DNA from: Cristatella mucedo
Lineage: Eukaryota; Bryozoa; Phylactolaemata; Cristatellidae
Assembly: GCA_009760855.2 (NCBI GenBank)
Contig: WPIO01000006.1
Span: forward strand, 310,001 to 374,000
Length of the DNA: 64,000 bases
Direction of reading: 5' to 3'
Position numbers and translations under genes: made by a program. This document shows, piece by piece, positions 11,401 to 61,051 of this stretch (position 1 is its first letter; each line of letters starts with the position of its first letter). The notes below the pieces were generated by a model. That model ran no database searches. It had not been told where the DNA came from and worked only from the letters and a program-made list of their open reading frames with translations.

Positions 11401-14124
11401 AGGAGCAGTGACAGCGTAATGAAACCAAACACACCTAAATGAGAAAGGCATATGATGAAAGACTAAAGCTGCTAACTAAAAGCAGCGAAAGAATTCACGG
11501 ACTGCACTCATTTCACAGGCACTGGCAAGCATTGCTACGACGATGGACAAGCTATCCCCCAGACTCTGGTGTCATTTTGGCAGGGACCAGGCACTCACCG
11601 ATTGTTGTAGCTAACGGGGCTACATAGGTAGCCTACCTAGGCAATCATATACGGACCCCACACCTGTCCCTTCATTCAGAACGTCAAGATGCTTCGATGA
11701 CTCTTTTGGGGTCAAATTTGGTACTCGGCCAAGCAGGTTTCACTCATTCGTCTCACATCTGCAGAAGGTCCCCTTCCAGCCCCTTCCAGTGGCTCCATGG
11801 TTCGACAGGCTTGTAGGAAGGCTCGATTTGCAGCAGTCAGCAAAGCAATGTCTTCTGTGTGGGAGGGGGAGGCTTCAAGAACAAGACACCCACACGGTTT
11901 TCCTGGGACCCATGGCTTCTGATACGGCGCTGCCGCTGCAGCAGGCAGTCAGATCTCATATGGAAGGAGCTCGAACCGCATAACAATCAGGAAACCGAAA
12001 ACTCCTATTTTCGACTGTCAGGGCAGTCTATTAGCATGATCAGAGAAAGACCAGCTCGAGTGACTTACCGGCCGACATGCACCACCCCCCCCCCCCCGCA
12101 CCGATGTATGGGCTTTTAAAAAGACCATTCACAGTCGCACTCTTTCCTTGTCTGGCTGCACAGCCAACCCCTGCGGTTTTCGTAATTCGCAGAGCAAAAA
12201 GCAGGGCAGCAATCCGCTACAAGACTTGGCTAGGACTGGACCGAAATGATCCATAATGGCTATAAGTGTTAAAACGTCTTCTTCAAATTCTTGGTGATAG
12301 CAAACATCAAGACTTTCTTTTTTCCCCTGTATCAGGCTGTAAACATACAAGTATTATATGAATTAAGATTGATATTTAACTCATTCGTGTGTTGCCAGCC
12401 GAGTTCTTGTCGATCAAACAGTCAACCCGAAAATACAGCCAACCGTAGGCAAAAGTGTATGGTGCCGAGCATTAACGCACTACGCATGCGTACAAACACG
12501 TGCTTCAAAGCACGGCACCACACAGCCCAATTGCCTTTGCAGAAAGCAGACGAAGTTGGCATCGCTAATGCACAGCCGGCCTCAGTTCAAAATTCTGAGG
12601 CATCGAGCTCTGGCTGACTGAGAAAAGAAACGTTGCTGAACCGCGGGCCGAATTTATATAAAGGCCAGTTAAAAAAACACGGGAATATCGTAGAGCCAGA
12701 AAAGTGAAAGAATTTGCCTTATCCTCTTCGGGAGTTGAAGCGATGACCTCTGTGAATCAGAGCCGAGTCGTACCTTCTCAGCCACCAATTTGACCCGACG
12801 ACAAATCCTCTGAATGAATTATGAAGCTCTTTATGATAACCAGTTATCAAACTGCTAAAAGTTGCACACACACCACACCCCGTCTCCGCACAGGTCACGG
12901 AGAACAGTGAGAGAGTGCCGAGTAGTAATGTATCTCTGCCTGTAACTCCACAAAGTCATAAAGACTATGTGGGTGTTAAGCAGGAGAGTTTTGTATAGCG
13001 CACTCACAGCCTAAGCAGCTTTCGGTACACATTCGGTAGCCAACAGGAGAGCAGTTGAGGTTGTGAGTAGCAGCTCAGGACCGCTGAAAAGGATGAGCCA
13101 TAGTCGGCAGCAGGAGAGTAGTTGTCGTAAGAATTGTGGAAGCGAGTTCCACAGTCGATGACCTGCAGAGCTAAAGCTTCTGTTGCCAACGGTCTTTAAG
13201 CAGAGGAATGGAACAGCTAATTTATTGTCCACACAGGACCTGAGGGCGTGAAGAGGCTGAAACTGATGCAGCAGTTCAGCTAGGTACGAAGGAGCCAAGC
13301 CGTGGCAGGCCTTGTGGGTCAGCAAAGAACTTTGATCTGTATCCGTTGCTCAACCGGCATCCATCCTAGCTCTTTTAGCAAAGGAGACACGTGCTCAAAC
13401 CTCTGGGACTTGAATACTAGCTTTGCAGCCATATTTATAGTCAGCTGCAGTGGCCAAGTGGCTTTCTTTGGTAGCCCAGCCAAAATGGAATTACAATAAT
13501 CAAGCCGAGACAGAACTAAGGAGCTAGTTAAATTTTTTGCAAGCCACTGTGGAAGACAGCTCCTAACCTTGGATAGGGATAGTAGTAGAAGTTCAGCATT
13601 AGCAGGCAGATGCACCTAGCATGCTTGGGCACTATGACCATTGCAAGCTGGCCACATTCGTCGAGCAATACACCCTGGAGGGTCGGAGGCAAATGTCGGT
13701 CCAAGAAAGCCAATGCAGGCTAGCCACCTACGGTCACCCAGCACAAGTGGTCAAGTTGAGAGTAAAACGAACAGGTGCCACGGTTGGCAGGCATCAAACG
13801 ACAGCTGGGCCAGACCCGGCAGCGCCCAAACAGACCTTTGCGCAAAATGGGCTTCGGCAGACAAGAAGGGCTTCGGCCGACGGGAGGTTTATCAGCACAA
13901 GAAACTTGCTTCCTTTGCTTCAGCCCCGGCATAGAGATCATAGAGTGGAACAAAGTCGGCAGAGAATCCAGGCATCCTATTCTGGGCTTTCTTTTTACAG
14001 CTGCATTAGCTGGAAGTCATGACATGCACGACGGCTTGTGAGGCAGCCGTCACTTCCACTGCTTGTGGTCAACGTGCGACTTCCCGTCACAAATAGGGCA
14101 GCAATCGGAGAGCAAGAGCAAGAG

Positions 14125-14207
<83 letters not shown>

Positions 14208-17200
14208 AGAGAAGGCAGGTCAAAGCCTGACCACTTGACCATGTCACTGCACCCACACGTCGGAATGGTTGTAGTGGTGCCACGGCCCTCCCCCTCCTCA
14301 GCAGCAGCAGCTCAGCCACTTGCACACTCATGCCTATGCGGGAGGCGAGGCCCCCCCCTGCTCACCTTCCCAGCCGACAGCTTGCAGAGGGAGCACGTTG
14401 TATTTGGACACGAACCGCTCCTCGAGCACGACCTGCACGGCACCGATGATCTGCGCCATGATGATCAGCTCGTCACCGGTGATGACGCGATTGAGATCGT
14501 ATGTCGATGAGGCAGTGCTCTTTGGCAGTAGGAAGTCGGACGCGCCGACCGAGGCGAGGCCTAGGACGACGAGAGCGATTCCGATGCCCATGTGCAAGTT
14601 TATGGTCCTCTGAAGGAAGGCCACCGACAGCAGCGCCGTGAAGATGATGGCCGAACCTGAACGGAAATAGGTTCGACGATGGTGGCAAAGCGATCGCAAG
14701 AGGCAGGCCGCCACACCCACCCGGCGCTGACCCATCCGGCCCACCGCTGTTAGCAGGCTGTGCTGCAGCCAGCTGCGAGCGAGCAGGGCTGCAAACATGC
14801 CCATTGCAGCCGACATCGTTGCCGACGGAAGGGAGCGTGGGCGGTCGAGAAGACGGCCGAAGACGAAAGAAACCCGCATCCGGCAGCAGTCCGAAAGCAC
14901 TTAATGCTGCGCTTGGCAAGCGCAGCTTTGGTGCCTCCCCTCCCCTGGGTCACTCATTCAGTTGCCTTGCAGACGAGGGATAGATACCTCGCAGCATCTG
15001 GTAGCTGGAGGCGTAGGTCATGTTAAGGCCAATGTACATCAGCGACGTGGCCACGATGTCGCACATGGCCGGTGCGATGAACATCCACGGCCTGAAGTCC
15101 TGGTTGCCGTTCACCAGCAGCTCGACCCGCTGCGGCGTCGGCCGGCCGGCGGCAAGCCTCGACAGCCAGATGCGCCTCAGCAGTTGGAAGACGAGGAGGC
15201 ATAGCATCTCGCCGATGAACATGCCGGTCGCCTGGCAGCAAAAGAAGCATGGAGGTGGGCGGCATGTCACCAGAGCGCGATCACAACTGAATGAACACTT
15301 GCACCACACTGCAGGAGTTCATTTCGGATTTCGGCAAGTAACTTTTTCTATGCAAGTCATCAAACGACCCTGATCTGTATTATCTGCAACACGGACGTGC
15401 ACAGCAAGACCTATCCAGCTGCTGTGGTGCCCACGTGGGAGATGAACTTACATTTGAAATTTCAGGTTGATCCGTCAAGTACTGGCCGAGTTATGGAGTT
15501 TACAAATCACAAAGCTCCGCCGTGAATGAAGCTGTTTAAAAGTCACAAGCATGTACCTCAACAAGCTGCAAACATGTATCTCGATTAACCAAGGTGCAAC
15601 AAGTTGGAACACAAGTCGTGTGTGATGCAGAGATCAGTCAATTTGCTAGCAGCAGATTAGAGCAGCTGAACTTGCTTTGCTGAGTCATAGTAGTTCTATC
15701 ACTGAAGACGATGCCCCATCTAGCCACTTGACGGAAGTGCACCATCTTGCCACGTGACACAAGTGTACCATCTTCCGGCATTACAGACTTTCTTGCTTTA
15801 ATTAATAGAGATATGTTGCTTCCGTTTGACTTCTTGGTTATAGTTTGTCTAATCCTTTTTTTCATGCTTCCTTTTATGTGGAAATCGTCAAAACTTCAGA
15901 TTTATTTCTAATATGTTTGTCTACTCAAAGGTGCCACGAACAATTATTATATTGCTGGAACAGTCTTCTCAGTATTCTCTCGACATTTACCCTTAAGCCG
16001 ATTTAGAATGAGAGCACTACCACATCAACATTACTGCCTCTCACATGATCGGACGACTAGGGTAAGCTTCCGATCCAGCATGATCCTTGGCTGAATCCAC
16101 ACTATATTCCCACCTAAGCGGTATCACGCCCAACAAATCCTTGGGGCGGCACGACTTAGTGGAACGCCGACCAAGTGGAATGCCGATTTAGTGTAATGGC
16201 ACACTTGGTAAGGCGGTAAAGGCTCTTCTGTCGCTATACAAAAGAGGCTGTTTAATCAGCTAGTATTTTTTAATGCCCCCACTGTCAGAACAAAGCATGG
16301 CAGCAAGAAACTCCACGCTTGCAGAATGCAACACCCTTAGCCAGAGAGAATACTTCAGTAGATTTGGAACTGTATAATCAGCACCGTGGTCAAGCCAGCG
16401 TGCTATCAGTCTTAAAGGAAGTTAAACAGCCTAACGTTCGATAACAGAATCGCTGGCATAGACAGAATCTTAATCATAGAAAAGGTTTGGAAATGGCGGT
16501 CATCCAAAGGCTCAGACCTGATTGACTGACACCTCACAGGAAGAGATTGCGACAGAAATAGAAAGACACATTATACAAACAGGAGAGAGAGAGAGTGAGA
16601 GAGAGAGAGAGAGAGCGAACAGACCGACCTGATTGACTGACACCTCACAGGAAGAGATTGCGACAGAAATAGAAAGACACATTATACAAACAGGAGAGAG
16701 AGAGAGTGAGAGAGAGAGAGAGAGCGAACAGACAGACCAAACCCATACATGTACAAATGCAATAGAAAATATAAAACCGATGACACTAATAATGAAAAGA
16801 GTTATAACAATCACACTTTTGTATAGCATGCCCAGAGAGCCAAATTGCTACCCGGGCACTTTCTAACTCAGTACAAGAGAAGCACCAACCACGAGTTAAT
16901 GACAAGCAAGGTATCATGCATAGGCAAGCATGCCAAAGCATGCATGAAGACACGCGGCACCGCTGGTCAGAAGGATTAGCAATATGAACAGTAGAATCAC
17001 GTACAGGTGAGCACACAAAGCAGACAGGAAAAGAAAAAGGCATGCTGACTGGAGGTGCAGGGAAAGCAGAGCAAAACAGATGCGACTCGAGATAAGACTT
17101 AACTTATATGATGCCAATGCAAAAGTGGCGGTGACAGAAGCCCCAAGCAAGTTCTAGACTTTCAGTGCATACCAACCGAAGACCCCATTGCCGAGATTTT

Positions 17201-19321
17201 AATTTAGTGCAAGCAACAGCAAGGCGACTGGAAGCCGAGGTACAGGTGTTGCAAAAGCATACTGGAGGAGCAGAGGGTCGAACAAGGTGGTCATTAGCTA
17301 TAGCTTCCGATTGTAGCCCAGACATTCTGAGAATCGATCGATCGCTCGCTTGATGGCAGATGTAAATGGCTTACAAAAGACACATGCGCTGATGTGACTA
17401 ATGTAGTGAAATCTGGGGAGATGCTGAGGCAATCTCGAGGAGAGATTTCATTGATGAAAGAACTTAGTTCAGAAGCAGCAAAGGCAGCAGCCACAGTTAG
17501 GAGCATTCTCGACCCAGCAGGCTGGAGCCTTGAACAGGAGGAGTCATCACTAGTCCTGGTTTGGCCTAATGATCACAGTGCTTGCCTTTGACGACCGATG
17601 TCATGGGCTCGATCCATGCAGCATATATGAAGCTTTACGCAACGACAACTACTCTCCAACTGCCGACTATGGCACATCTTTTTCAGCGGTGCTGAACTGC
17701 TACTTCTATGCCACTCACTACCTCAACTGCTCTCCTGACTCGGCTATGCTTCCCACTTTCTCTTTGTTGCGTGAGACGAAGTCTGTTGGCTACCGAATGC
17801 GTACCGAAAGCCGCTTAGGCTGTGAGTGCGCTATACAAAACTCTCCTGCGTAACACCCACATGGTCTTTATGACTTTGTGGAGTTACTGACGGAGATACA
17901 CCTGGATAGAGATAAGTTCTCTTAGGGCACTGTATAAATAAATTATATTTATTTATATTTATCAAGGGCAGCTGATGGAGGCCATGCAGTTTTGCTTAGC
18001 TACACCAACCATGTTAGCTGCAATGCAACATCGTATCCTGTAGTCCAGCTGTTCCCAATGGGAAGCACAAAAGCTTAAAATAGGCTAGATGTACATTTGG
18101 AAAAGAAAACATTCCCTTACCCAGAGCATACAAATCTCTAGCAAATCACGGCTAGTCAGCCACCGACCCGTATAGAGTCCTGCTACAAGTTGGGCAGCAT
18201 TGGCTGTAACTCCTTCCAAGCCACCAGTGCACCGGCTGCTTACCTGCAGAAAGGGATGGTCAAACTCGCGCTCTGGCAGCGTAGTGTTGCAACCTTTCGA
18301 CATTGTGATATCAGCCCACCTGGAAACATATGAGGTTAACATCTGGGACCGCAGATCAGAACGTAAACTGAATATAAAGATTCTCGAGTGCATAGTTGAA
18401 TGACCATTGACTCTTATGGGATTCACCCTTCGTGAAGGCGGTAAGGTAGTTAACAGCATGCCTGCCAGTCTGAGATGGTTACTGGCGAGACTGTAACAAT
18501 TGTCATTGTATCAATCGCCCCTATTAAGCCCTTCATCAGCGACATCTCAAAAAGACGGCAGAAAGAGTGAGCCAAAGTGGCAGGCTTAGCTGATTAGGCT
18601 GGGCAAAAACAATCAATGGCTCAAAGAAGATGGGACTCGGGCACTATGAATTAGTCAGGCATCTGCAATGACGCGATCGCGAATGATCTCCAATGGCAGT
18701 CACGGGAGAGCGAAGTGACAAGCGGCATGTTTGGGGATGCTGGCCGATCGCATACGGACGTCAAGTGATTCATCCATAGGGCCAGCCCGGGTCAGCACGA
18801 GACGAAAGCCGACCTATCGGCCGCTAATGGGGGGGGGGGGGAAAGCTCAAAGGACGCTCGCCACAACCGCCCAAAGGCTTGTTGAGCGTGGAGACCTAAA
18901 ATTAATTATTGCACCGCGAGGAATGCACGTGAGCTGTAAAGCACTCTGAGGGGAGACAGAGACGTCGAGCGACCCCGGACGTTGTCAAAAACCACCTCCT
19001 GCTGGTCACTTGTCACGGTCCGTCGGATAGCCTTGACAATATTGACGTTCTATCAGTCGCGCAGCTGTCGGACGATCGCTAATGAGTACCGGAGGACACC
19101 CGAAGCTTTCTTCGAAGGAAGATGTGAGCGCAGCTGTCGCTGAGAGCAGGAGCTCGAAGCCGAAGTCCCGGCCAGAGCTCAGGAGAGAAGGGAAGAGGGT
19201 GAATGCGCGAGCATCCTGGCAACGCTACTAGCAGCAGGTCTTACTTGGTGGTCAGCGTGTTAAACGACCCGGCCACCATCATCAGTCCCGCGAGGAAAAA
19301 ATGGTACGGCGACCACGCCAT
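8408..19321 (-). CDS. SLC35F6: SLC35F6-like membrane transporter (gene span, 7 exons)
   Basis: A multi-pass protein of the drug/metabolite transporter superfamily, SLC35F subfamily. The human orthologue is a lysosomal/mitochondrial membrane protein reported to bind the adenine nucleotide carrier ANT2; its substrate is not established. Coding exons on the minus strand: 19245-19321, 18244-18319, 15988-style spacing then 14988-15231, 14366-14656, 11279-11434, 8620-8781 and 8408-8479. All junctions are GT-AG, phases run 2,0,1,1,1,1, and the total is 1,078 nt or 359 residues against about 371 in human. Blocks matching the family are HPFLQATGMFIGE, LNMTYASSYQMLRG, VITGDELIIMAQIIGA, DAFCQ, GNIVSIAFFNFAGISVT and ELSATTRMVLD. 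After exon 7 the frame either reads GK-stop or is spliced at GTAAGT to an unseen exon. Introns hold SINEs, LINE-B pieces and a half foldback element. Confidence 0.92.
8620..8781 (-). CDS. SLC35F6: SLC35F6-like exon 6
   Basis: Acceptor GTTGCAG. GNIVSIAFFNFAGISVTREL, SATTRMVLDCMRTLVVYVVS and FHFLQVIG; donor GTACGC, phase 1. This is the most conserved signature of the family. Confidence 0.94.
9440..9592 (+). mobile_element. SINE2 copy (degenerate)
   Basis: A degraded tRNA-like head with B-box-like GGTGAATTCGAGTCTTGC is followed by the SINE2 body GTGATAGCCGCCAAGGGTG and the end ATAAATAAGGCTGCTGAATC. A T-rich (TTTTA)n-like tract of about 100 bp follows at 9601-9700. It lies in intron 5 of the SLC35F6-like gene. 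Confidence 0.6.
10494..10645 (-). mobile_element. SINE2 copy, minus strand
   Basis: On the minus strand, a tRNA-like head with a good B box (GTGGGTTCGATTCCTACGGC) is followed by the SINE2 body GGGGTGATGACCGCTAAGGC and the end CTGTATAAATGAGGCTGTG. The rest of intron 5 (8782-11278) holds no other recognised feature apart from the copy at 9440. Confidence 0.75.
11279..11434 (-). CDS. SLC35F6: SLC35F6-like exon 5
   Basis: Acceptor ATTTAG. GVFGFITLSLLLIPMHFI, then SFSSTPSHLLEDVPDAFCQM and IPFAISG; donor GTAAGT, phase 1. Matches human GLFGFVILSLLLVPM and DAFCQ. Confidence 0.92.
12700..12810 (-). mobile_element. tRNA-like SINE head (uncertain)
   Basis: The minus strand reads GGTGGCTGAGAAGGTACGAC and then GAGGTCATCGCTTCAACTCC, spaced like A and B boxes. 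It may be a diverged SINE2 copy. 11435-12700 otherwise holds only intron sequence and a poly-C run near 12083. Confidence 0.35.
12925..13600 (-). mobile_element. LINE-B fragment with 3' end, minus strand
   Basis: On the minus strand the ORF2 C-terminus is readable in two frames: SRLDYCNSILAGLPKKAT, LKELGWMPVEQRIQIK, then [17 protein letters not shown] and RLWNSLPQFLR. The LINE-B 3' UTR follows, ending in AGTTACAGGCAGAGATACATTAC. One frameshift separates the frames. It lies in intron 4 of the SLC35F6-like gene. Confidence 0.88.
14123..14203. repeat. (AG)n microsatellite
   Basis: About 40 AG units, preceded by an AGAGCA-type transition, just downstream of exon 4 (intron 4). Confidence 0.97.
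14366..14656 (-). CDS. SLC35F6: SLC35F6-like exon 4
   Basis: Acceptor GTTCAG. Continues G-SAIIFTALLSVAFL, IGIALVVLGLASVGASDFL, RVITGDELIIMAQ and LEERFVSKYNV, then AVGWEG. Donor GTGAGC, phase 1. Several membrane helices; the best conserved exon of the gene. Confidence 0.94.
14988..15231 (-). CDS. SLC35F6: SLC35F6-like exon 3
   Basis: Acceptor TGCCAG, then ATGMFIGEMLCLLVF (membrane helix), a hydrophilic loop, FIAPAMCDIVATSLMYIGL and SSYQMLRG, donor GTATCT in phase 1. The cytosolic loop with PTPQRVELL is longer and more basic than the human one. Confidence 0.93.
15445..16005. mobile_element. foldback element, single-arm copy with insertion
   Basis: Homologous to the right arm of the elements at 32.4-33.6 and 58.8-60.3 kb. 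Shared blocks include GAAGCTGTTTAAAAGTCACA, the CAAGGT...CAAGTTGG segment, ACACAAGTCG, GCAGAGATCA, GTTGCTTCCGTTTGACTTC and TGGAAATCGTCAAAACTTC, ending at TCGACATTTACCCTTAAG. About 165 bp at 15640-15805 is an insertion resembling 49,940-50,068 (CGGAAGTGCACCATCTTGCC; GACTTTCTTGCTTTAATTA). The opposite arm is missing. Confidence 0.7.
16165..16275 (+). mobile_element. SINE2 copy, B box deleted
   Basis: The A-box half (TAATGGCACACTTGGTAAGG) joins directly to the 3' body (GTAAAGGCTCTTCTGTCGCT, AGAGGCTGTTTAATCAGC). The middle with the B box is missing. Confidence 0.65.
16513..16738. repeat. tandem duplication of ~112 bp containing (GA)n
   Basis: Two consecutive near-identical copies begin at GACCTGATTGACTGACACC (about 16516 and 16627), pass through AAATAGAAAGACACATTATA, and end in GA-rich microsatellite and GCGAACAGAC. 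Confidence 0.92.
16800..17360 (-). repeat. LINE-like 3' region shared with 22.5-22.95 kb
   Basis: Diverged partner of the repeat at 22,520-22,950: both have AACCACGAGT, AGGTATCATGC, GGTGACAGAAGCC and GGTGCATAC in the same order. On the minus strand the first part resembles a LINE-A-type 3' stem-loop (AAGTGCCCGGG...GGGCATGCTATACAAAAG). No intact ORF. Confidence 0.5.
17620..17905 (+). mobile_element. LINE-B 3' UTR fragment
   Basis: The 3' UTR starts near AACGACAACTACTCTCC and runs through GCTATGCTTCCCACTTTC to CTTTGTGGAGTTACTGACGG. It is immediately followed at 17906-17960 by a second 3' end of the SINE1/LINE-A type (GATAGAGATAAGTTCTCTTAGGGC). It lies in intron 2 of the SLC35F6-like gene. Confidence 0.85.
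18244..18319 (-). CDS. SLC35F6: SLC35F6-like exon 2
   Basis: Acceptor TTTCCAG, then WADITMSKGC...FDHPFLQ and donor GTAAGC. The WAD and HPFLQ blocks line up with human WAD..M..GC...HPFLQ. It ends in phase 0. Confidence 0.93.
19245..19321 (-). CDS. SLC35F6: SLC35F6-like exon 1 (start codon)
   Basis: ATG at 19321-19319 follows GGAGGA. It encodes MAWSPYHFFLAGLMMVAGS and on to NTLTTK, matching the human N-terminus (MAW..Y..FLAGLM.V.GS.NTL). Donor GTAAGA follows, phase 2 (AA|G, lysine). Confidence 0.93.
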
Positions 19322-23119: not shown

Positions 23120-24150
23120 TCAACTCCACAGTCAAGTCTGCCTACTTTCAGCTACACAACATTCTGAAGTTCGGTCTTGTTTAGACAGAGAAACCGCTGT
23201 AGTCTGAATTATCGTCGCAAATGGCAAAGAACGCTAGCCGACGTGCAGCACCACCAGTTTATTCCACCTCCACACGGAGCAGGGCGAAGCACGACTCTCC
23301 TCGCCCCTCTCGCCCACCGGAGTCCCACGACTCCCTTGTCAAAACAACCACTAATAGCACGTCCCGGCTGCTTACCACATCGAGTGTCACAGCCCACTCG
23401 TACAGCGATCAGGGGCAGTGTCATTAATTAAATAAAACCACAACCGCATCTAAGTTGATCCATGCATTTGTGACATCCCGTCTTGGCTTCTGTAACTCAC
23501 TGTTTGCTGGTTTATCGGCCTGTGCACTCAGGTGCTTACAGCTGGTGCAAAACTTGGCAGCTAAGCTTGTCTGTCGTGAGCGTCGCAGTTGCCATATCAC
23601 ACCACGTCTCGCCGACCCGCACTAGCTCCCAGTCAAGCAACGCATCGACTTCAAGGTTTTGTCTCTCACTTTTAGGGCCCTTCATTATTTGGCTCCAGCC
23701 TACCTATCAGATCTGCTCCCCCACAAGGCTACATGGTACCACCAGCTTTTCGGAATCTGTTTACCTATACCTCGTACAAATCTCAAATCCTTTGGAGACC
23801 GTGCCTTTAGTTCTTATGCTCCCAAAGCCCGGAACTCACTCCCGACCTGGGTCACGACATCTCCTGACTTGTCCATATTTAAAAAAAACTAAAAACGCAC
23901 GTATTTATGAAAGCGTGTAGTGGGTCTCTGTGATTCGTCCTTTATGTGCTTATGCATTCTGACACTGTGCATGCTGCCACAAACCGTAGTTGCGTGCTGA
24001 CCCTTTGCATGCCACTCCTAACTTGTTATTCTTGTTGTTTATTGAGCATGCTACCACTATCCATTCGATCGTGCTTCTTTTGCAGCAAATGTGAAGTGCT
24101 TAGAAAGTTATTGAGCTTTCCGAGGGCGCTATATTAAATGCATTACTATT
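23120..24150 (+). mobile_element. LINE-A copy, degenerate, interrupted
   Basis: 23,120-23,180 has the LINE-A block for [12 protein letters not shown]. About 250 bp of foreign sequence follows (to about 23,440), then homology resumes at LIHAFVTSRLGFCNSL and runs through [19 protein letters not shown] to the 3' UTR and a GAAGTGCTTAGAAAG...GAGGGCGC stem-loop near 24,090-24,135. It has several frameshifts and stops. Confidence 0.8.
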
Positions 24151-24189
24151 ATTTTTTCCCGTCTCCTAGAAACATGAATGCTTCGTGGG

Positions 24190-27349: not shown

Positions 27350-29455
27350 ATACGCTGTATAAAAAAAATGCAACGAGACTTTAGAAAAACTGAATCTGCT
27401 ATAACCGTACCAGGTATAATGAGTTTACACCCGGAAGCCATAAAAAGCCAGGGCTTCTTTTCTCTCTCTCTCTCTCAAAAACTGAATTCCTGCCAGTCGG
27501 ACCCAAAACAGATTTACGAGAAAGTAAACAATTTACTGGCTGATGCTGAGAGGTCTGACTCCCCAGATATTAATGTCTCAGCCGAAAAGTTTCTAGCCTT
27601 TTTTACTGAAAAAATTATGCAAATTCGTTCCTCCATAACCCCCCCCCCAGTAAAGCAATTGAAGAATCACAACCTGTGACCTTACTTAAAAGATTTTCCG
27701 AGGTTTCTGCATGCGATGTGGCTACCTTAATAAGGTCTAGTAAAACGAGCTCGTCTCCTGAAGACCCTATACCATCATCTCTGTTGTCTTCACCGGCTGA
27801 TCAACTTAGCCCTGCCATAACCAAGATTGTTAATGCTTCTTTAGAAAAAGGGGTTGTACCCAAGTCCTTCAAAGCGGCAGTCGTTAGACCCATACTTAAA
27901 AAGACTGGATCAGATACGGACGTTCTTGCAAACTATCGCCCAGTTTCCCGTCTACCTTTTTTGTCAAAAATTCTTGAAAAAATTGTCGCTAAGCAGCTGG
28001 TTGAACATATTGAAAATAATGGAATGTCAGAAACATTTCAATCGGGGCTCAAGAGGCAGCACTCCTAAAACTGCTCTCCTCCGTGTTAACAATGACATTC
28101 TACGTGGCAACGACGACGGGAATGTCACTGCCCTAACTCTGCTAGATCTGTCTGCTGCCTTCGACACCAACGATCACGATGTTCTGCTTGAACAATTGAG
28201 AACAACGATCGGTCTGGCAGATGAAGCACTGGCATGGTTTAAATCGTACTTGTCTGATCGTATTCAATCCGTGTCGTGTGCGGGTCTTGTCTCACACCCG
28301 AGACGGGTCACCTGCAGAGTCCCTCAATCGTCTGCCCTCGATTCCTTACTGTTCGCCATTTATACTCAACCTCTGGAAAAAGTGATTAAGGCCAATGGAA
28401 TAGGATATCACTTTTATGCTGAATATACTCAGCTGTACTTGTCATTCAAACAGTCGGAATCTGCTGCAGCAACTGATAAACTGAATGCTTGCCTTGCCGA
28501 TATTCGATCCTGGATGTCGGAAAACTTCCTGAAATTAAATGACAATAAAACCAAACTGCTGCTCATAGGACACCCTAAGCGTGTGGCTGGATTAAACGGC
28601 TTTGCTGTTCTAATAGGTGATGCTGTTGAGCAACCATCACCACGTGCTTAAAATTTAGCTGTCATTTTCGACAGCTGCCTAAATTTTAAAAGCTTTATTC
28701 AGAAGACTGCTGCTACAGCTAGCCATCACGTGCGATCCCTATCTAAGACTAGGAGCTGTCTTCCACAGTGGCTTGCAAAATATTTAGCTAGCTCCTTAGT
28801 TCTCGGCTTGATTATTGTAATTCCCTTTTGGCTGGGCTACCAAAAAAGCAACTAGGCAACTGCAGCTGGCCATGAAAATGGCTGCAAGGCTATTTTTCAA
28901 CTTCCAGAGGTTTGACCATGCGTGTCCTTTGCTAAAAGAGTTAGAATGGCTGCCGGTTGATCAACGAATACAGAGCAAAGTTCTTACGCTGACCCACAAG
29001 GCCCGCCACGGCTTGGCTGCTCCATACCTCGCTGAACTGCTGCACCAGTTTCAGCCTCATCGTGCCCTCAAGTCTTGTATGGACAATAAATTAGGTGTCT
29101 TATTCCTCCACTTATAGACCGTTGGTGACAGAAGCTTTAGCCCTGGAGGTCCTTGACTGTGGAACTCACTTCCACAATTTTTACGGAACGACAATTACTC
29201 TCTTGCTTCCGGCTATGGCTCATTCTTTTCAGCGGTCCTGAGCTGCTACTACCATGCCACTCACTACCTTAACTGCTCACGTGACTCTGCTATGCTTCCC
29301 ACTTTCTCTTTGTTGCGTGGGATGAAGTCTATTGGCTACAAAATGCGACCGAAAGCCGCTTAGGCTGTGAGTTCGCTATACAAACTCTCTTGCGTAACAC
29401 CCACATAGTCTTTATAGCTTTGTGGAGTTACAGACGGATATACATTACATTACAT
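27350..29455 (+). mobile_element. LINE-B copy 1, 5'-truncated, with RT and 3' end
   Basis: Runs from the endonuclease-RT linker through the reverse transcriptase to the 3' UTR and (ACATT)n tail at about 29,445. RT blocks: [62 protein letters not shown], then YAEYTQLYLSF at about 28,414 where active families have a ...ADDTQLY motif, so both catalytic aspartates are lost. The GVPQGS block is CRVPQSS. A frameshift lies at about 28,045-28,070, and others near 28,650 and 28,860. About 1.08 kb of it is nearly identical to LINE-B copy 2. Dead element. Confidence 0.93.
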
Positions 29456-32382: not shown

Positions 32383-33615
32383 AGTAAGTGTCGAGAAAAT
32401 ACTGAAAAAAATTTGATTTGTCCAAAAATCACATTTTTGTGTAGGCAACTTTCAAAAAACAAAGGTTTGGAAATGGGATCGGAAGTTTTGATGATTTCCA
32501 CGTAAAAGAAAAAATAATTATCCAAAAATGTCTAAGCCGGAAGTAAAACGGAAGCAAAATGTATACAAGTAAATAAATTGGCGATCACTGCAACGTATGC
32601 GACTTGCGTTCCAGCTTTTTGAACCTCTGTACATCGAGGTACTTGTTCGCATCTTGTGGAGATGCATGTTTGTGACATTAAAAAGCTTCAGTTACATTAT
32701 AGCAATGTGCCTTGTAAACCCAATAATTCAGGGAATACTTCACGGATAATCCGCAAATCTTTTTGAAATGAGAGCTCAGTGATGTTTGCGAATTTGTGCA
32801 AGAGTTTATTTTCGATTTTGTTTCGATAAGTATTGCTTTACATTTCAGCAGAAATTATGGAGCTTGCTTTTCTGAAACTATGGACACATTTAAATAATTA
32901 TCAAACTGAAATCAGAAATAAAATCATGCAGAGATTTTATTTGTAAGCACAAAAGAACTCAAATTTGAAATTTGATATTGATCCGTAAAGTATAGGCCGA
33001 GCTATGAAATTTACAAGGCTCAAAGCTACATAGTTAAACGAAGCTGTTTAAAAGTCACAATCATGTGATTCAAAAACCTGCAAGCATTTATCTTGGTGTA
33101 CCAAGATTCAAGAAATTAGGACACAAGTCACATACAATGCAGAATTTTTCTTTATAGATAATAAAAATAACAATAATGCACTTGATAAAGCGCCCTCAGA
33201 GAACTTAATCTCTGTCTAGGCGCTTTACATTTGCTGCAAAGGGAAATGCTGTTGAATGGTGAGTAATATCATGCTTGATAAACCAACAACATGAATAAAA
33301 TGGTTAGGGGTGACATGCACAGGGTCAGCATGCAAATGTGGTTAGTGGCAGCATGCACAGTGTCAGCACGCATAAGCACATGAAGATCGAATCACAGGGA
33401 CCCACTAAATGCTGTCATAAATAGGTGTGTTTATTGCTTTCGGTCTACCTCCGGGTCAGACTTGGTTTGTATGACCACTTTTTCTTTAGCGTCGAAATCG
33501 CCAAAACTTCCGATTGAATTTCTAACATTTTTTGTCTTTTTAAAGGTATTTTAAGCAAATAATTAATTTTTAGTGATTTCTTATGGTATCTTGCCGACAT
33601 TTACCCGTAGGGTAT
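32383..33615. mobile_element. foldback element, full copy with LINE insertion
   Basis: Left arm about 32,383-32,760 and right arm about 32,945-33,615 are inverted copies of one another. Left arm blocks TTGATGATTTCCACG, CCGGAAGTAAAACGGAAGC and GCATGTTTGTGACATTAAAAAG pair with AGCGTCGAAATCGCCAAAAC, CCTCCGGGTCAGAC and TTTAAAAGTCACAATCATG. The centre (about 32,820-32,925) carries a small inner palindrome (GTTTCGATAA...TTATCAAACTGAAA). A minus-strand LINE-A 3' end (33,160-33,430) splits the right arm. No transposase ORF. 31,765-32,380 holds nothing recognisable. Confidence 0.8.
33160..33432 (-). mobile_element. LINE-A 3' UTR inserted in foldback arm
   Basis: Minus strand: ACACCTATTTATGACAGCAT, the CTGACCCTGTGCATGTCACC block, and the stem-loop AAGCGCCTAGACAGAGATTA AGTTCTCTGAGGGCGCTTT followed by an A/T-rich tail. 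Heavily 5'-truncated; younger than the host foldback copy. Confidence 0.88.
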
Positions 33616-36778: not shown

Positions 36779-37117
36779 TGTTAAATAGCCAAGAGGGCGC
36801 TTTATAACTTAGCCACGTTTCCTCATCAATTAGGTAGCTGATTGGGACTGACTGGGCCGATTTCGTAGTCTCATTACGCAATCGCATGCCGATGGGGTAG
36901 GAGCGCCGGCCGAGCCAGGGAATGAGCTAACGAGGCTCTTCTCTAGCGCGCTTAGCAATTGATGGCCGACTCTTCGAAACGCATCGCTTACTTACCCATT
37001 TGACCTGCCCCGGTCAAGGGTAGCAGCATCGATCGATTCACTCCGCCGAAACTGCTCGCCCACGGCTGAGGTTGTGCGAATTAAGTACCGCCCGTCTCTT
37101 TTTCTCTCGCATTGCAG

Positions 37118-38201
37118 CGGCTCAGAGGCGCTCCGGAAGGCACTCTGTCCATGGCGAGCTCTGGCGACGACGGAGCTGGAGCTTTGCCCTCACAGCTGCA
37201 GCTCTACGTGAAGGCGGGAAGCGACGGCGAGAGCTACGGCGCCTGCCCCACGTGCCAGAGGATCTTCATGATTCTCCTCGTGAAGGCGCGGGGCGGTGCT
37301 GCGCTCGACTTCGTCGTGAAGGCGGTGAACGCTGCGAGGCCGCCGGAGAGTTTCCGCCGCCTGGCGAGCCGAGTGCCGACACTCGTGCACGGCGACGTGG
37401 TGCTCACCGACTCCGACGAGATGGAGAAGTACATCGAGGCTTCGTGGCCCGATCCCAGGATGCAGCTCTCTAACCGGACGGCTGTCGATGCTTGCATCGA
37501 CTTCTTTTCAAAGTTTTCTTTCTACGTTAAAGACGTGGCTCAATCGCCCGCAGCGCTGTTGCATGAGCTGAAGAAAATAAACGATTACCTCGTCGACGAA
37601 GAGACAGTCTATCTGTGCGGCTCTGACGTGAGCGCTCTCGACTGCCTGGTGCTGCCCAAACTGCAGCACGTTCGAGTCGTCGCCAAGGCGCTCAAGGATT
37701 TCGACTTTCCGCCGGAATTCAGCGCTCTGTGGAGGTATTTGGCAGTAGCGTACTCTAACGAGGCGTTCAAGGAGGCTTGCCCTGCGGATCAGGAGATAGT
37801 GGCCGCCTGGTTAAGCAAATCCGATATGCATCACCAGCCACGAGAGGTCTGGCGCCATTACTACAAGGGTGGACCTCGCTCGCACAGCTTCGACGTGCCC
37901 TCGAGCGACTGAGCAGCTCACTTGGTCTGGCTTTCGGCTCGCTCGCTCGGCTGCTGCCTCAACTCGGAGTTTCCTCGGCGATCGCCTACAAGGGAAAGCT
38001 GCCAAACACATTGGCGCTGGATTAGCAGCGGGGGGGGGGGGCCAGCGCAGCATTGGCAAAGACTGTGGGCACCCGCCGCCGGCTCTCTTAATTACACGCG
38101 GGATTCCTTTGGCGCCGTAGGCTGTTTACCGTATGACCGGATGGAATTTTCTGCCCTGTAGCGATTGTAGTGTGCTCAGCTGCAATCCATGTATAATTAA
38201 A
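37118..38201 (+). other. CLIC transcript unit (terminal exon and 3' UTR)
   Basis: A pyrimidine-rich tract then ATTGCAG at 37,111-37,117 looks like a splice acceptor. The frame stays open from there to the ATG, so an upstream 5' UTR or N-terminal exon is likely but was not found in 36,780-37,110. ATTAAA at 38,196-38,201 could be the poly(A) signal, giving a 3' UTR of about 300 nt that includes a poly-G run near 38,031. Confidence 0.6.
37151..37912 (+). CDS. chloride intracellular channel-like protein (CLIC/EXC-4 family)
   Basis: A 253-residue protein of the GST-fold CLIC family. These are soluble glutaredoxin-like proteins that can associate with membranes; EXC-4 in nematodes shapes excretory tubes. 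The N-terminal thioredoxin-like half has LQLYVKAGSDGESYGACPTC at residues 16-35, so the active-site motif is CxxC (Cys32, Cys35), as in insect forms and unlike vertebrate CPFS. It continues with QRIFMILLVK and RVPTLVHGDVVLTDSDEMEK (cis-proline loop). The helical C-terminal half has FSKFSFYVKD, HELKKINDYL, LDCLVLPKLQHVRVVAK and ALWRYL..AY, then CPADQEI. A short hydrophilic tail follows. The ATG has G at +4; an upstream in-frame TTG is not a credible start. Intronless coding; third positions are very GC-rich, so it is not a decayed retrocopy. Confidence 0.94.
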   Translation: MASSGDDGAGALPSQLQLYVKAGSDGESYGACPTCQRIFMILLVKARGGAALDFVVKAVNAARPPESFRRLASRVPTLVHGDVVLTDSDEMEKYIEASWPDPRMQLSNRTAVDACIDFFSKFSFYVKDVAQSPAALLHELKKINDYLVDEETVYLCGSDVSALDCLVLPKLQHVRVVAKALKDFDFPPEFSALWRYLAVAYSNEAFKEACPADQEIVAAWLSKSDMHHQPREVWRHYYKGGPRSHSFDVPSSD

Positions 38202-41227: not shown

Positions 41228-41432
41228 GTACTCACTACCTCAACTGCTCTCCTGACTCTGCTATGCTTCCCACTTTCTCTTTGTTGCGTGAGACGACGTC
41301 TGTTGGCTACCGAATGCGTACCGAAAGCAGCTTAGGCTGTGTGTGCGCTATACAAAACTCTCCTGCGTAACACCCACTTGGTCTTTATGACTTTGTGGAG
41401 TTACAGAGGGAGATACATTACATTCGTATAAG
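41228..41432 (+). mobile_element. LINE-B 3' UTR fragment
   Basis: Starts at CTCACTACCTCAACTGCTCT and runs to GAGTTACAGAGGGAGATACATTACATT. Very similar to the 17.6 kb copy. 40,716-41,228 and 41,433-41,877 contain no recognised gene. Confidence 0.88.
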
Positions 41433-41877: not shown

Positions 41878-44800
41878 TGTAATGTAATGTAATGTAATGT
41901 ATCTCCGTCTGTAACTCCACATGTACCTCCGTCTGTAAGTCCATAAAGTCATAAAGACCAAGTGGGTGTTACGCAGGAGAGTTTTGTATAGCGAACTCAC
42001 AGCCTAAGCGGCTTTCGGTACGCATTCGGTACCCAACAGACTTCGTCTCACGAAGCAAAGAGAAAGTGGGAAGCATAGCAGAATCAGGAGAGCAGTTGAG
42101 GTAGTGAGTAGCATAGAAGTGGCAGCTCAGGATGGCTGAAAAGGATGAGCCAAAGTCGGCAGTAGGAGAGTAGTTGTCGTTGCATGAGAATTGTGGAAGC
42201 GAGTTCCACAGTCTAGGACCTGCAGAGCTAAAGCTTCTGTCACCAACGGTCTATAAGCGGAGGAATAAGACACCTAATTTATTGTCCATACAGGACCTGA
42301 GGGCACGATGAGGCTGAAACTGGTGCAGCAGTTCAGCGAGGTATGGAGCAGCCAAGCCGTGGCGGGCCTTGTGGGTCAGCGTAAGAACTTTGCTCTGTAT
42401 TCGTTGATCAACCGGCAGCCATTCTAACTCTTTTAGCAAAGGACACGCATGGTCAAACCTCTGGAAGTTGAAAAATAGCCTTGCAGCCATTTTCATGGCC
42501 AGCTGCAGTTGCCTAGTTGCTTTTTTGGTAGCCCAGCCAAAAGGGAATTACAATAATCAAGCCGAGAACTAAGGAGCTAGCTAAATATTTTGCAAGCCAC
42601 TGTGGAAGACAGCTCCTAATCTTAGATAGGGATCGCACGTAATGGCTAGCTGTAGCAGCAGTCTTCTGAATAAAGCTTTTAAAATTTAGGCAGCTGTCGA
42701 AAATGACAGCTAAATTTTAAGCACGTGGTGATGGTTGCTCAACAGCATCACCTATTAGAACAGCAAAGCCGTTTAATCCAGCCACACGCTTAGGGTGTCC
42801 TATGAGCAGCAGTTTGGTTTTATTGTCATTTAATTTCAGGAAGTTTTCCGACATCCAGGATCGAATATCGGCAAGGCAAGCATTCAGTTTATCAGTTGCT
42901 GCAGCAGATTCCGACTGTTTGAATGACAAGTACAGCTGAGTATATTCAGCATAAAAGTGATATCCTATTCCATTGGCCTTAATCACTTTTTCCAGAGGTT
43001 GAGTATAAATGGCGAACAGTAAGGAATCGAGGGCAGACGATTGAGGGACTCTGCAGGTGACCCGTCTCGGGTGTGAGACAAGACCCGCACACGACACGGA
43101 TTGAATACGATCAGACAAGTACGATTTAAACCATGCCAGTGCTTCATCTGCCAGACCGATCGTTGTTCTCAATTGTTCAAGCAGAACATCGTGATCGTTG
43201 GTGTCGAAGGCAGCAGACAGATCTAGCAGAGCTAGGGCAGTGACATTCCCGTCGTCGTTGCCACGTAGAATGTCATTGTTAACACGGAGGAGAGCAGTTT
43301 TAGGAGTGCTGCCTCTTGAGCCCCGATTGAAATGTTTCTGACATTCCATTATTTTCAATATGTTCAACCAGCTGCTTAGCAACAATTTTTTCAAGAATCT
43401 TTGATAAGAAAAAAAAGGAAAACTGGGCGATAGTTTGCAAGGATCTGTGTCTGATCCAGGCTTTTTAAGAACGGGTCTAACGATTGCCGATTTGAAGGAC
43501 TTGGGGACGACCCCTTTTCCCAAAGAAGCATTAACAATCTTGGTTATGGCAGGGCTAAGTTGGTCTGCTAGTGAAGACCACAGAGATGAGGGTATAGGGT
43601 CTTTAGGAGACGAGCTCTTTTTGCTAGACCTTATTAAGGTAGCCGCATCGCATGCAGAAACATCGGAGAACCATTTAAGGAAGGTCACAGGCTGTGGAAC
43701 CTTGATTGCTTTAGTCGGATGGTGCCTAATGGAGGCATGAACGTGCACAATTTTTTCAGTAAAGAAGGCTGAAAACTTTTCGGCTGAGCCCTTAATATCT
43801 GGGGAGTCAGACCTCACAGCATTGGCTAGTAAATGGTTTACTGTCTTATAAATCTATTTAGTGTCCGACTGGCAGGAATTCAGCTTTCGAATGAAAAAAG
43901 AAGCCCTGATTTTTTTAAGCTTTCGGGTGTAAACTCGAAGGTAGTGTTTGAAATTGACTAGATGTGCATCAGACTCCGATTTCTTGAAATGACGTTCAAG
44001 CCAGCACTTAACCCGGCGGATCTTGAGGAGTTTCTTTGTAAATTGAAAGAAATCTCCACGACTTTGAACATGGATAGCATGAACGGGTGTGATCCAGAGA
44101 TTGGAAAGGCTGACTTTCAAAATTGGCTCTGCCAGCATATCTCCTGTCGAATCAGCTCGGAATCTAGGTGTCATATTCCAAAGCGACCTCTCGTTAGACG
44201 ACCATATCAGCTCCACAGTCAAATCCGCCTATTTTCAGCTTCATAACGTTGCTAAAATTCGGACTTGTTAAGATAAAGATACCACGTCCAAGTTAGTTCA
44301 TGCATTCGTGACATCCCGTCTCGACTTCGGCAACTCACTGCTTACTGGCCTACCAGCATGTGCGATCAGGCGATTGCAGCTTGTGCAAAACTCTGCAGCT
44401 AGGCTTGTCTGTCGTAAGCGTCGCAGTTGCCACATTACTCCACTTCTCGCCGACCTGCACTGGCTACCAGTCAAGCAACGGATTGACTTCAAGGTTTTGT
44501 CGCTCACTTTTAGGTCCCTTCATTCTATGGCTCCAGCCTATCTGTCAGATATACTACCCCATCAGGCCAAGCATCGTACCACCCGCTTTTCGGAATCCAA
44601 CAGTCTAGAAATACCTCATACAAAGCTTAAATCCTTTGGAGACCGTGCATTTAGTTCATATGCTCCCAAAGCCTGGAACTCCCTCCCGACCTGCGTCAAA
44701 ACATCCCCTGACCTGACCACATTTAAAAGGAACCTAAAAACACACCTATTTAGGACAGCATTTAGTGGGTCCCTGTGATTCGTCTTTGATGTGCTTATGC

Positions 44801-46140
44801 GTGCTGACACTGTGCATGCTGCCACTAACCGTATTTGCATGCTGACCCTGTGCATGTCACCCCTAACCATATTATTCATTTCGTTTGTTTTTCAAGCATG
44901 ATTTTACTTACCATTCAATGGCATTTCCCTTTGCAGCAAATGTAAAGCGCCTAGAGAGAGATTAAGTTCTCTGAGGGCGCTTTATCAAGTGAATTATTAT
45001 TATTATTATTATTAACGGGAGCATGCTTGTCAAAAGCACTCCCGAGTGTCATGTTCATCGCATCAGTGACGGTATTGAGGCTGCCGGTCGAGTCTGAATG
45101 CAGATCAAGAAGGCCTGCATCACAAACAGATTTCAAAAACTTGTCCATGTCAATGCTTTGTAAGTTGCGTCGTTTGGCAAATTCGACATTGCCCTGCACG
45201 TACGAGGGAGCAGGAGCAGTAAACGAGACCGAACAATGATCTGAGAGGGTCAGTGGGCACACCACAAAGTCAGTGGGGAGGACATCCTTAGTGATCACGA
45301 GATCTAGAATGTGGCCACCGACGTGGGTGCTATGATTAACGTGTTGGGCCAAACCAAAATTCTTCAGACAGTCAAAAAATGAGCGGAACTGGCTGTTGTT
45401 AGGGTTGTCAACATGATTATTGAAGTCTCCTACAATCAGTAACGGCCTGTCACACACAAATATTTTAGCGAGGAACTGTGAAAACTCCTCTATAAACAAG
45501 TTTAGACAGCCAGAAGGAGGCCGGTATTTCACAACGGTGAGAGGCATTGTCTTTGATGAAGACCTGATAGCAACCGATTCAAACGATGACCCATGCGAGA
45601 AACTGCACATTCTATAGCCAAACGATTCGCGAACAACAATTGCAACCCCGCCACCAACCTTGTCAGAACGCATGGACTGATAGAATGAGAACCCGGGTGG
45701 GGTGGTCTCGAAAATACAGCTACTGGAACAAGGCGTCATCCAGGTTTCGGTAAGCAGAAATGCATCTAGCTTCTCCTGGACCACCTGATCGCGGATAAGT
45801 AACCCCTTGGTTTTTAGCGAGCGGACATTTAGTAGGCGGAATTTAAGAGGCTGTCCAACAACTGGGCGACGGCGATGAAGTGGCTCCTATTCTCTACCGT
45901 TTGCGTCCGGCCCGGCGGACGCTGGCTCTTCGAATTTGAATTGGACCTTGGTAACGGCCGTCGGACGACGTTTCACAACGTGCTGGGCTACGGCGAGTGG
46001 GCTACTACCGCAACAAGTACTATTCAGCGCTTTTATCTTACGGGTCGTGGGTTTGATAGCCGAGCTGTTGATAGGGCGAACGCAGGATGCAGGAAGGTTC
46101 TCACTGACCTGCCGGTAGGTATTGACTAATGGCGACATCG
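41878..46140 (-). mobile_element. LINE-B copy 2, longest copy, split by a LINE-A insertion
   Basis: An L2/CR1-like element read from about 46,140 down to the (TACAT)n tail at 41,880-41,900. 45,887-46,138 is an open stretch of unknown role (possibly ORF1-end or 5' part). 45,016-45,870 is the APE endonuclease: LLNVRSLKTKG, LLTETW, GGVAIVVRESFG, LLIVGDFNNHVD, LDLVITKD and SDHCSVSF. After DKHAPV the frame is cut by LINE-A (44,087-45,013) and resumes as the linker (LKIRRVKCWLERHFKKSESD) and RT ([33 protein letters not shown]). The RT lacks the catalytic Asp pair, and CRVPQSS replaces GVPQGS. Frameshifts near 43,400 and 43,330. The net element is about 3.3 kb. Confidence 0.9.
44087..45013 (+). mobile_element. 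LINE-A, nested inside LINE-B
   Basis: 5'-truncated: begins in the block before ESARNLGV-type sequence, carries an open ORF2 C-terminus (44,308-44,778; [20 protein letters not shown] to FRTAFSGSL), the 3' UTR, the stem-loop AAGCGCC...GGGCGCTTT (about 44,945-44,985) and (TTA)n to about 45,013. Both sides show AACGGG (44,081-44,086 and 45,014-45,019 approximately), a 6-bp target site duplication. Confidence 0.93.
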
Positions 46141-46334
46141 CACCTTACGCTAAGCAGGTCCTATTTTGTGCAGCATATCCGAGGACAGCTCATAAATAGT
46201 CACAGGGAAGATAGCAGCGGAATACCCGAAGGTATTACGGAGAAATCAAGTAAAGGTCCACAACACGCTAGGAGTCGCCCGAGGCCGCTCTCTAGCCCGG
46301 GGAGGAACTGTCGTATTGTGGCTGATACCAAAAA

Positions 46335-46515
46335 AAGAACAGCTGATTTAACGGCCTCGTTTGTATAACAGCAGAAGAGGCTAAATGGCTATCACCACCG
46401 CTTGCAGTTGGAAATGAAGGATCGCCCACCGCAGGATTCGAACCTACAACCTCGGTCGTCAGTGACGAGCGAACACCTTACCTCGTGGGCTATCGCAGGT
46501 GACTTCCATTTCAGC
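46335..46515 (-). mobile_element. SINE2 copy, complete, minus strand
   Basis: Minus strand: A box GATAGCCCACGAGGTAAGG, B box GTAGGTTCGAATCCTGCGG, body GCAAGCGGTGGTGATAGCC, and end ACAAACGAGGCCGTTAAATC. The best copy of SINE2 in the window. Confidence 0.85.
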
Positions 46516-49480: not shown

Positions 49481-49484
49481 TGTT

Positions 49485-49916
<432 letters not shown>

Positions 49917-50789: not shown

Positions 50790-50930
50790 GTCTTACGTAA
50801 AAAAGCGTGGGTTCGAATCCCAAAGGTGGACCATTCTGTATTGCCACAGCAAGCGGTGGTGATAGGCGTCAAGTCTCTTCTGTCTCTATAAAAACAGACT
50901 GTTAAATCAGCTAGAATTTATTTATTTATT
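50790..50930 (+). mobile_element. SINE2 copy
   Basis: B box GCGTGGGTTCGAATCCCAAAGG, body CAAGCGGTGGTGATAGGCG, end AACAGACTGTTAAATCAGC, and tail (ATTT)n. The A-box half is degraded. Confidence 0.8.
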
Positions 50931-58000: not shown

Positions 58001-60961
58001 GTTGAGATCTGTGCACTGAAATAGGACCTACACCATTGCAGTAATGTAATATATCTCTGCTCTTATAACTCAATAAAGCCACACAAACTATGAGGGTGTT
58101 ATGCAGGAGTTTTTTTATAGCACACTCACAACCTAAGCGGCTTTCGGTACACACTCAGTAGCCAACAGACTTCATCTCACGAAACAAAGCAAAAGTGAAA
58201 AGCAAAGCTGAGTCAGGAGAGCAGCTGAGGTAGTGAGTAGCCTGGAAGTAGCAGCTCAGGACGGCTGGAAAGGATGTGCCATAGTGGGCAGCACGAGAGT
58301 AGTTGTCGTTGTGTAAGAATCGTGGAACTGAGTTCCACAGTCAAGGACATGCAGAGCAAAAGCTTCTGTCGCCAACGATCTTTAAGCAGAAGAATAGAAC
58401 AGCTAATTTATTATCCATACAAGACCTGGGGGCACGAGGAGGCTGAAGCAGGTGAAGCAGTTCAGCTAGGTATGAAGGAGCCAAGCCGTGGTGGGCCTTG
58501 TGGGTCAGTGTAAAAACTTTGCACTGAATCGGTTGATCAACAGGCAGCCATCCTAGCTCTTTTAGCAAAGGAGACACATGCCACTATTGCAGTGCCAGCA
58601 TTACCCAGATGAGACTATTGGAACTTATCCTCGCAATATGCAACTCGCTTTACTTACAATCGCTAACTCTGGAATGATTACTTCTAAAGCCTGAGTGGAT
58701 CTTACTTTGTAGGTCTGAAGCATTGGTATGAGGCGGTCACAGTGGCAAGATGTAGAGATTTGTTTCTATTTCGGTTGGATACAGTTTGCTGCACCTGTCC
58801 ACGATTGCAGAAAATAAAGCTCGCGGATGTCTGATTGAGGTGTACAGCAAACATTATCCAACCGAAATCGGAAATTTTCTACAACACTGTGGTACAAAGA
58901 GAGTTTAGCTCGAATTCAAAATTTCGGACTGATAGGAGCAGTATTTGCCAAATTATGGAATTTACGAGGCATCAAGCTATACTGAAAATGAAGCAGTATA
59001 CAAGTCACAAGAATGCACATCAACAAGCTTTATGCATGTACCTCGATCTACCAAGGTTTAATAAGTTGAGTTGCAAGTCGCATGCAATGCAGAGATCAGA
59101 AAACATTTTGAAAAGTACCTTTATCAATTATTCGACTGTTCTACCAATTGTGTAAATATTTTCTTGACATGGCCCCTTAAGGGGGAAAGTCAAGAAAATA
59201 CCTATACAATTTGTCCGACAATCGAATATGTGTTTATGGTACCTTTCGAAAGACGAATATGTTAGAACTGGGATCTGAAGTTCTGACGACTTCCACATGA
59301 CAGGAAACATTCGTTATGCAAACCACGCCCAACCCGGATGTAAACCAGAAGCAACAAATCTACAAATAAAAAAGATTTATCGATCTCTGCATCATATGCG
59401 ACTTGTATCCCAACTTGTCGAATCTTGGTAGATCGCTATAGATGCTTGAAGCTTTTGAGGTGCATACTTGTGACTTTTATACAGCTTCATTTCCAGGGTT
59501 GGTTGGTGCTTTGTAAATTAAATAACTCAACTAATTTTTCACATACGGAGTGAAATTTGAAATGTGAGTTCAGCTCTGCTTTTTTACCCTAGTTTTTAAT
59601 ATTTTTTATTTTGGTTTGATACAATTGGTTCTATATGTCCACGATTACGGAAAATAAAGCTCCAGTACGTTTGATGACGTATACAGCCAAATGCATCAAA
59701 CCGAAATCACAAATAATAATAAATAAATATTAAACATAAATATTATATATAACGATATATATATAATATAATAAATAAATAATAAACATTAAAATATTAA
59801 TAATAATAAATAAATAAACACAAATATTAAACATAAATATTAAAACTAGGCTAAAAAAGCAGAGCTGAACTCGCATTTCAAATTTAATTCCGGTACGTGA
59901 AATATTAGTTGAGTTATTTAATTTACAAAGCACCAACCAACCCTGGAAATGAAGCTGTATAAAAGTCACAAGTACACACCTTAACAAGCTTCAAGCATCT
60001 ATAGCAATCTACCAAGGTTCGACAAGTTGGGATACAAGTCACATATGATGCAGAGATCGATAAATCTTTTATTTGTAGATTTGTTGCTTCCGGTTTACAT
60101 CCTGGTTAGACGTGGTGGGTATAACCTATTTTTATTTCACGTAGAAGTCGTCACAACTTCCGATCCCAGTTCTAACATATCTGTCTTTCGAAAGGTACCA
60201 TAAACACGTATTTGATTGTCGGACAAATTGCATAGGTATTTTTTTGACATTCCCGCTTAAGAAATAGCACCAGCAGCAGCATCTGATAACAGCAACGTCG
60301 ATTAGTAGCAATAGGATGATAGCAGCATTGAGTACTAGAAACATCAAGAAATTGATGCCGCAGCCCGGAGGAGGGCAGCATTGGGCAGCAGCAACATCTG
60401 GGAATGACTGTGGCAGTGCAGTGACAGCTAGTACTAATTTCTGAGCCGTTGCTATCAAGATGTGCGCTCATTGCCTCGCCATGTAGCCTTGCGAACCGAG
60501 CAGCCACGGCTGCACACATTACAAGGCTGCACATGCCCCTCTAAGCCTTCCCTCTGCACGGTCGAATACGTACCGAGACTTCGACACCGGCCGGCAGCAC
60601 AATCGGCCTGAATGACAGCGAGTGAGGGCAGATTGGCGTTATAAGTATAGCCGGCACGCTCGGATGAATCATCGATGCGCCGGCTGCAGCAGCGTATGCT
60701 GTGCTGCCGGTAGGCGTCGCGATGATCACACCATCGCCTTGAACGGAAGTGATCAGCTTCCCCTCGACATACAAGTCGACGTTGCATAGATAGGGTGAAG
60801 GTCCGCGGTCAACCACTACCTCGTTAAGTACCTGTAAGGGAAAGAAAGTCTGCTTTTTGGCCTGCGACAGAGCCACGCACGATGAACAGAAACGACAATG
60901 GCGGATGGATGCAGCCACCAGCGAGCAGGCACAGACGCACGATGTAATGGATGCCTGTGCA

Positions 60962-61051
<90 letters not shown>

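Follow-up and report, generated by a model that had tools for sequence, protein, structure and literature searches.

How do two dead retrotransposons that differ at more than a tenth of the sites on either side come to be almost identical over 1.1 kb in their middle? We addressed this question in a window of 64,000 nucleotides (the whole stretch of DNA analysed: positions 310,001 to 374,000 of contig WPIO01000006.1 from Cristatella mucedo), which carries many LINE fragments, among them, by self-comparison, nine copies or fragments of a non-LTR retrotransposon family that we call LINE-B. Two of these, A and B, lie in opposite orientation and are 92.9% identical overall in the same self-comparison (A 27421-29445 on the plus strand, B 41921-43936 on the minus strand), an average that conceals a very uneven distribution of differences.

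Copy A (27421..29445, plus strand) is dead and truncated at its 5' end, and only the reverse transcriptase (RT) part and the 3' end are detected in it. Copy B (41887..45886, minus strand), also dead, comprises an endonuclease part (44954-45886), a nested insertion, and an RT part that together with the 3' end runs from 41887 to about 44030 (a limit set by reading alignments and frames); the first-pass annotation put its 5' end at about 46.14 kb, and 45886 is the limit of the part described here. Pfam searches identify Exo_endo_phos in the endonuclease part (E 8.9e-11) and RVT_1 in both copies: in B with E 2.1e-12, and in A over two frames, with E 4.8e-13 and, in the upstream frame, an E of 0.0014 that falls below the Pfam cut-off. 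The domain order, endonuclease followed by RT, is that of a LINE with an APE-type endonuclease. Solved LINE-1 endonucleases match the element weakly by sequence (E 0.52-0.71), as does the solved LINE-1 ORF2 reverse transcriptase (E 0.061; the best match, a "Reverse transcriptase-like protein", has E 0.033). LINE-B may resemble CR1, L2, or a similar clade. An exact 35-base pattern of the element has no match outside the host in genome contigs or viral contigs, and the near-identical tract has none in phages. Two other copies on the minus strand overlap the region of interest: C (12925..13580, covering A 28735-29448), our gauge of the evolutionary rate of the tract, and D (58041..58580, covering A 28917-29453), which we used as an outgroup. 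A further LINE-B 3' end fragment lies at 41229-41424, separated from the 3' end of B by about 460 bp and oriented opposite to it; its positions 41230-41417 are 96.3% identical to 17713-17900.

Base-by-base alignment of A and B reveals a tract of 1083 bp (27988..29070 on the plus strand in A, 42298..43380 on the minus strand in B) with 3 differences, all of them transitions (at 28136, 28727, and 28749), and no gap column. The diverged 5' flank (A 27421..27987) differs from B by 81 substitutions in 555 sites and 13 gap columns, and the diverged 3' flank (A 29071..29445) by 45 substitutions in 375 sites and 2 gap columns, giving substitution rates of 14.6%, 0.28%, and 12.0% for 5' flank, tract, and 3' flank, respectively. 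With both flanks pooled (126/930, or an identity of about 86.5%), divergence in the tract is about 2% of that in the flanks (95% interval 0.4-6%). The flank differences nearest the tract sit at A 27987 and B 43381 on the 5' side and at A 29071 and B 42297 on the 3' side, so that the borders proposed from a first reading by eye are exact, as is the absence of length change, and the approximate partner span of 42,300-43,380 is now made precise. That reading had allowed for fewer than ten tract differences and had put the flanks at 88-90% identity; the near-identity and the divergence both stand, and the figures become exactly three differences and about 85% (5') and 88% (3') identity. The spacing of about 14 kb was an overestimate, the inner distance between the tracts being 13.2 kb.

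The clustering of differences outside the tract is far stronger than chance would produce. The longest stretch of the A-B alignment with at most three differences spans 1083 sites, a length reached in 0 of 20,000 shuffles (maximum 301), and the longest exact run, 590 bp, was likewise reached in none of the 20,000 (maximum 204). As a control set we took all 44 BLAST repeat pairs in the window with E up to 1e-10 and at least 250 alignment columns: for A-B, 0 of 2000 shuffles gave as long a stretch with at most three differences, and for each of the other 43 pairs 68 of 2000 or more did, leaving A-B as the only pair of the 44 with a tract of this kind. This uniqueness rests on the 44-pair shuffle test, a comparison filtered at 94% identity omitting A-B because of its overall 92.9%. 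The shuffles and the other 43 pairs together rule out chance clustering of differences, and identity along the two copies is far from uniform.

We further find that the tract carries the same damage in both copies. Both A and B have their frame shifted before 28066 and interrupted by a stop at 28649, and both carry YAEY in place of the usual RT catalytic motif of the ADD type (the frameshift and the broken motif had already been seen by eye); two gaps relative to C, of 4 nt at 28800 and 1 nt at 28844, are common to them as well. Outside the tract, A and B differ by six indel events, four on the 5' side and two on the 3' side, and none falls within it (read from the difference list). Lesions shared inside and indels that differ outside indicate that the tract derives from one copy that was already broken.

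The order of events can be approached through a nested LINE 3' fragment, N (44087..45014, plus strand), which sits inside B between endonuclease and RT and provides a relative clock for the residence of B. Over 44273-45014 it shows 95.4% identity to 670-1411 (P), and its family has other matches at 48568-49485 (Q), 23443-24156, and 33158-33432. Comparison of N with P and Q over 732 sites assigns 17 private changes to N (about 2.3%) and 14 to P, with 3 ambiguous; 12 of the 17 fall in the reading frame of N, 6 synonymous and 6 not, as would be expected for decay without selection. At the rate of N the tract should hold 50 differences, compared with the 3 in 1083 observed (P about 3e-18), and at half that rate 25 (P about 4e-8). 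These numbers suggest a long residence of B before its tract came to match that of A, with the clock an upper bound on age, as some of the private changes of N may predate its insertion. The 3' flank shows private change in both copies as well: with C and D for comparison, 17/310 in A and 9/310 in B; with C and E, 16/247 and 8/247; and with F and G, 13/187 and 7/187. Private flank changes and the nested fragment, the latter read as an upper bound, fit an exchange that postdates both insertions.

A tract kept alike by purifying selection, or one that simply mutates slowly, would also be near-identical, and the tract does lie within the coding part of the element. Other copies in the window serve as yardsticks here, comparable with the tract over 335 sites in C, 154 in D, and 50 in I. 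C shows 38/335 differences from the tract of A and 37/335 from that of B, about 11%, compared with 40/311 from the 3' flank of A and 29/313 from that of B, or 9-13%, and is about equally far from tract and flanks; D differs from the tract at 20/154 sites and from the flanks at 69/374 and 64/376, and I from the tract at 13/50. The tract part may be mildly slower-evolving, D being somewhat closer there than in the flanks, a point in favour of conservation, but the distance from D to the tract remains far above the 0.28% that separates A from B. In the tract the ratio of A-B differences to shared differences from C is 1:37, compared with a flank ratio of 34:17 (Fisher p about 1e-10). The stop and the frameshift that both copies carry are ill suited to a conserved sequence, and because 1080 of the 1083 sites are identical, divergence cannot have accumulated at synonymous sites either. 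Within the portion of the tract spanned by C and D, comparison with these copies contradicts regional conservation as the source of the identity, and we give this explanation a negligible place among those considered. Quartets of A, B, C, and D were also searched for a change of grouping between tract and flank, and none was found, the two regions differing in distance only: in the flank, too, A and B group together at 10 sites, while the two alternative groupings have 3 and 2 (with C and E, A-B at 1 site, A-C at 3, and the third grouping at none). The case for exchange therefore draws on distance and on the sharpness of the borders, not on a change of grouping. We considered a longer, older conversion extending to about 29179, up to which A and B differ at 7/109 sites, compared with 38/266 beyond; over the same segment there is no dip in A-C (17/109, then 23/202), a small one in A-D (17/109, then 52/265), and a partial one in A-E (5/56, then 36/255).

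Three other explanations were weighed. An assembler could have filled a gap or a collapsed repeat in one copy from the other, and a gap-filler would be expected to leave just such abrupt borders and near-identity; the identical runs, of up to 590 bp, would exceed short-read phasing. Suggestive points to the contrary are that the window is without any N base, that the 3 tract differences are unlike plain copy-paste, and that ordinary repeat collapse would not turn about 13% divergence into 0.3%; we regard an artefact as unlikely, while treating it as the main rival. LINE reverse transcriptases are known to switch templates, and a mosaic subfamily, or recombination of this kind at insertion, could give elements with the same middle and different ends. 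A tract made in that way could be no younger than the insertions, yet its total change is only 0.28%, set against private flank change of about 3-4% in B and about 5.5-7% in A, about 2.3% private change in the fragment nested in B, and the 11% that separates C from the tract over 335 comparable sites. The private flank change and nested N lead us to judge a mosaic made at insertion very unlikely. A third, younger copy might instead have overwritten A and B in two independent conversions, and with nine copies or fragments in the window the family could offer donors; such a history requires two events with the same two borders, self-comparison finds no such copy in the window, and we rate it a shade lower still.

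We consider interlocus gene conversion between A and B the best explanation of the tract in the assembled sequence, with a probability of about 0.78. A long near-identical stretch between paralogous copies, diverged on both sides, is the pattern by which gene conversion is recognised, and recent non-reciprocal exchange, as proposed in the first-pass annotation, is supported by the abrupt borders, the distances to C, the pattern of lesions and indels, and the nested fragment. A and B would be separate insertions of an endonuclease- and RT-bearing non-LTR retrotransposon, inactive, in opposite orientation, and 13 kb apart; a recent break or gap in one copy would have been repaired on the template of the other, replacing about 1.1 kb within the dead RT gene while the older, diverged sequence outside stayed as it was. 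The agent would be recombinational repair, with A and B the likely partners as opposed to both having been overwritten from a third copy. The exchange was presumably non-reciprocal, since copies that had traded segments in both directions would not have come to resemble each other. We infer a single event, although overlapping events in the same direction can mimic one long tract (PMC3924818). In a test with polarised sites, 8 of 153 tract sites have a state common to A and B but different from that of C and D, where 13.3 would be expected with A as donor and 9.4 with B, a weak lean toward B as donor.

Some features of the locus count against conversion. At 13.5% divergence, the longest exact run expected in 1083 bp is about 36 bp (95th percentile 54), far below the minimal segment of roughly 200 bp given for yeast, for which shorter ones are possible (PMC3924818). 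The flank identity of about 86.5% is below the >90% of human disease conversions, which is itself slightly higher than in yeast and rodent (PMC3924818), and the 1.1-kb tract exceeds most of the mean tract estimates in that source, which are mostly 50 to several hundred bp, with roughly 1 kb in one data set. The broader idea that ectopic repair in this genome copes with about 13% mismatch across more than 1 kb of transposon copies in opposite orientation, and that neighbours regularly overwrite dead retrotransposons so that divergence ages are unreliable, seems to us quite improbable; the other 43 repeat pairs in the window, which have no such tract, speak against "regularly".

The window has further features of its own. 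Upstream of copy B, ARAGORN predicts a tRNA-Ser (anticodon ACT) at 46422-46501 on the minus strand, and Rfam at gathering thresholds gives no match anywhere in the window, the tRNA included; a region overlapping this call (46333-46452) has relatives at 10480-10597 and 50807-50912 and may be part of a SINE. A perfect (AC)57 array is joined directly to an (AT)26 array at 49748-49914, and a 111-bp unit with GA runs occurs twice in tandem at 16513-16738 (96% matches). An open frame of 275 codons (37085-37909, plus strand), with CLIC-like and glutathione S-transferase domain matches, looks like a host gene, and a frame with the C-terminal domain of NAD-kinase (60544-61128, minus strand; E 3.1e-31), which runs through a long CT array, is probably an exon of another. 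Pfam also gives a weak SLC35F match, below the cut-off; taken with the CLIC-like and NAD-kinase pieces and the many LINE fragments, it fits a eukaryotic and probably animal origin for the window.

If real, the tract offers a clear-cut case in nature of conversion involving retroelement copies of low identity in opposite orientation. An element altered in this way may look very young in one part and old in the rest, misleading divergence-based dating, and a near-perfect inverted repeat pair of 1.1 kb could promote inversion of the intervening 13 kb.

Among known systems, non-allelic gene conversion is documented between Alu elements (PMC6598467, PMC8230782), where it is described as acting within about 10 kb and declining with distance (as cited in PMC8230782), and where 12 cases are given of young elements replaced by old inactive ones (PMC8230782). 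The likeness is that a dispersed retroelement copy is made like another; here, in contrast, the element is a LINE and not a SINE, the tract is about 1.1 kb, the spacing is 13 kb, and the flanks are about 86.5% identical. Copies in opposite orientation on one chromosome are also found in the human Y palindrome P6, with multi-kilobase conversion tracts and Y arms that are >99.9% alike (PMC3723533), and in the nearly perfect inverted repeats of C. elegans, with arm-to-arm conversion (PMC1803023), whereas our copies are separate insertions with a single island of identity. Interlocus conversion of duplicated genes (PMC3924818) would share the mechanism that we infer here, and the GENECONV signature described there, a long region of high identity judged by shuffling variable sites, resembles the one we found with our own shuffles; the cases in that source differ in having tracts mostly of 50 to several hundred bp and, for disease cases, more than 90% identity. 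A limited literature search, judged by titles and the start of abstracts, returned no conversion between LINE copies, and work on LTR elements came up. Conversion between transposable-element copies is already known, and the present case is a new example that leaves the understanding of the process unchanged; what is notable here is the length of the tract combined with the low identity of its flanks.
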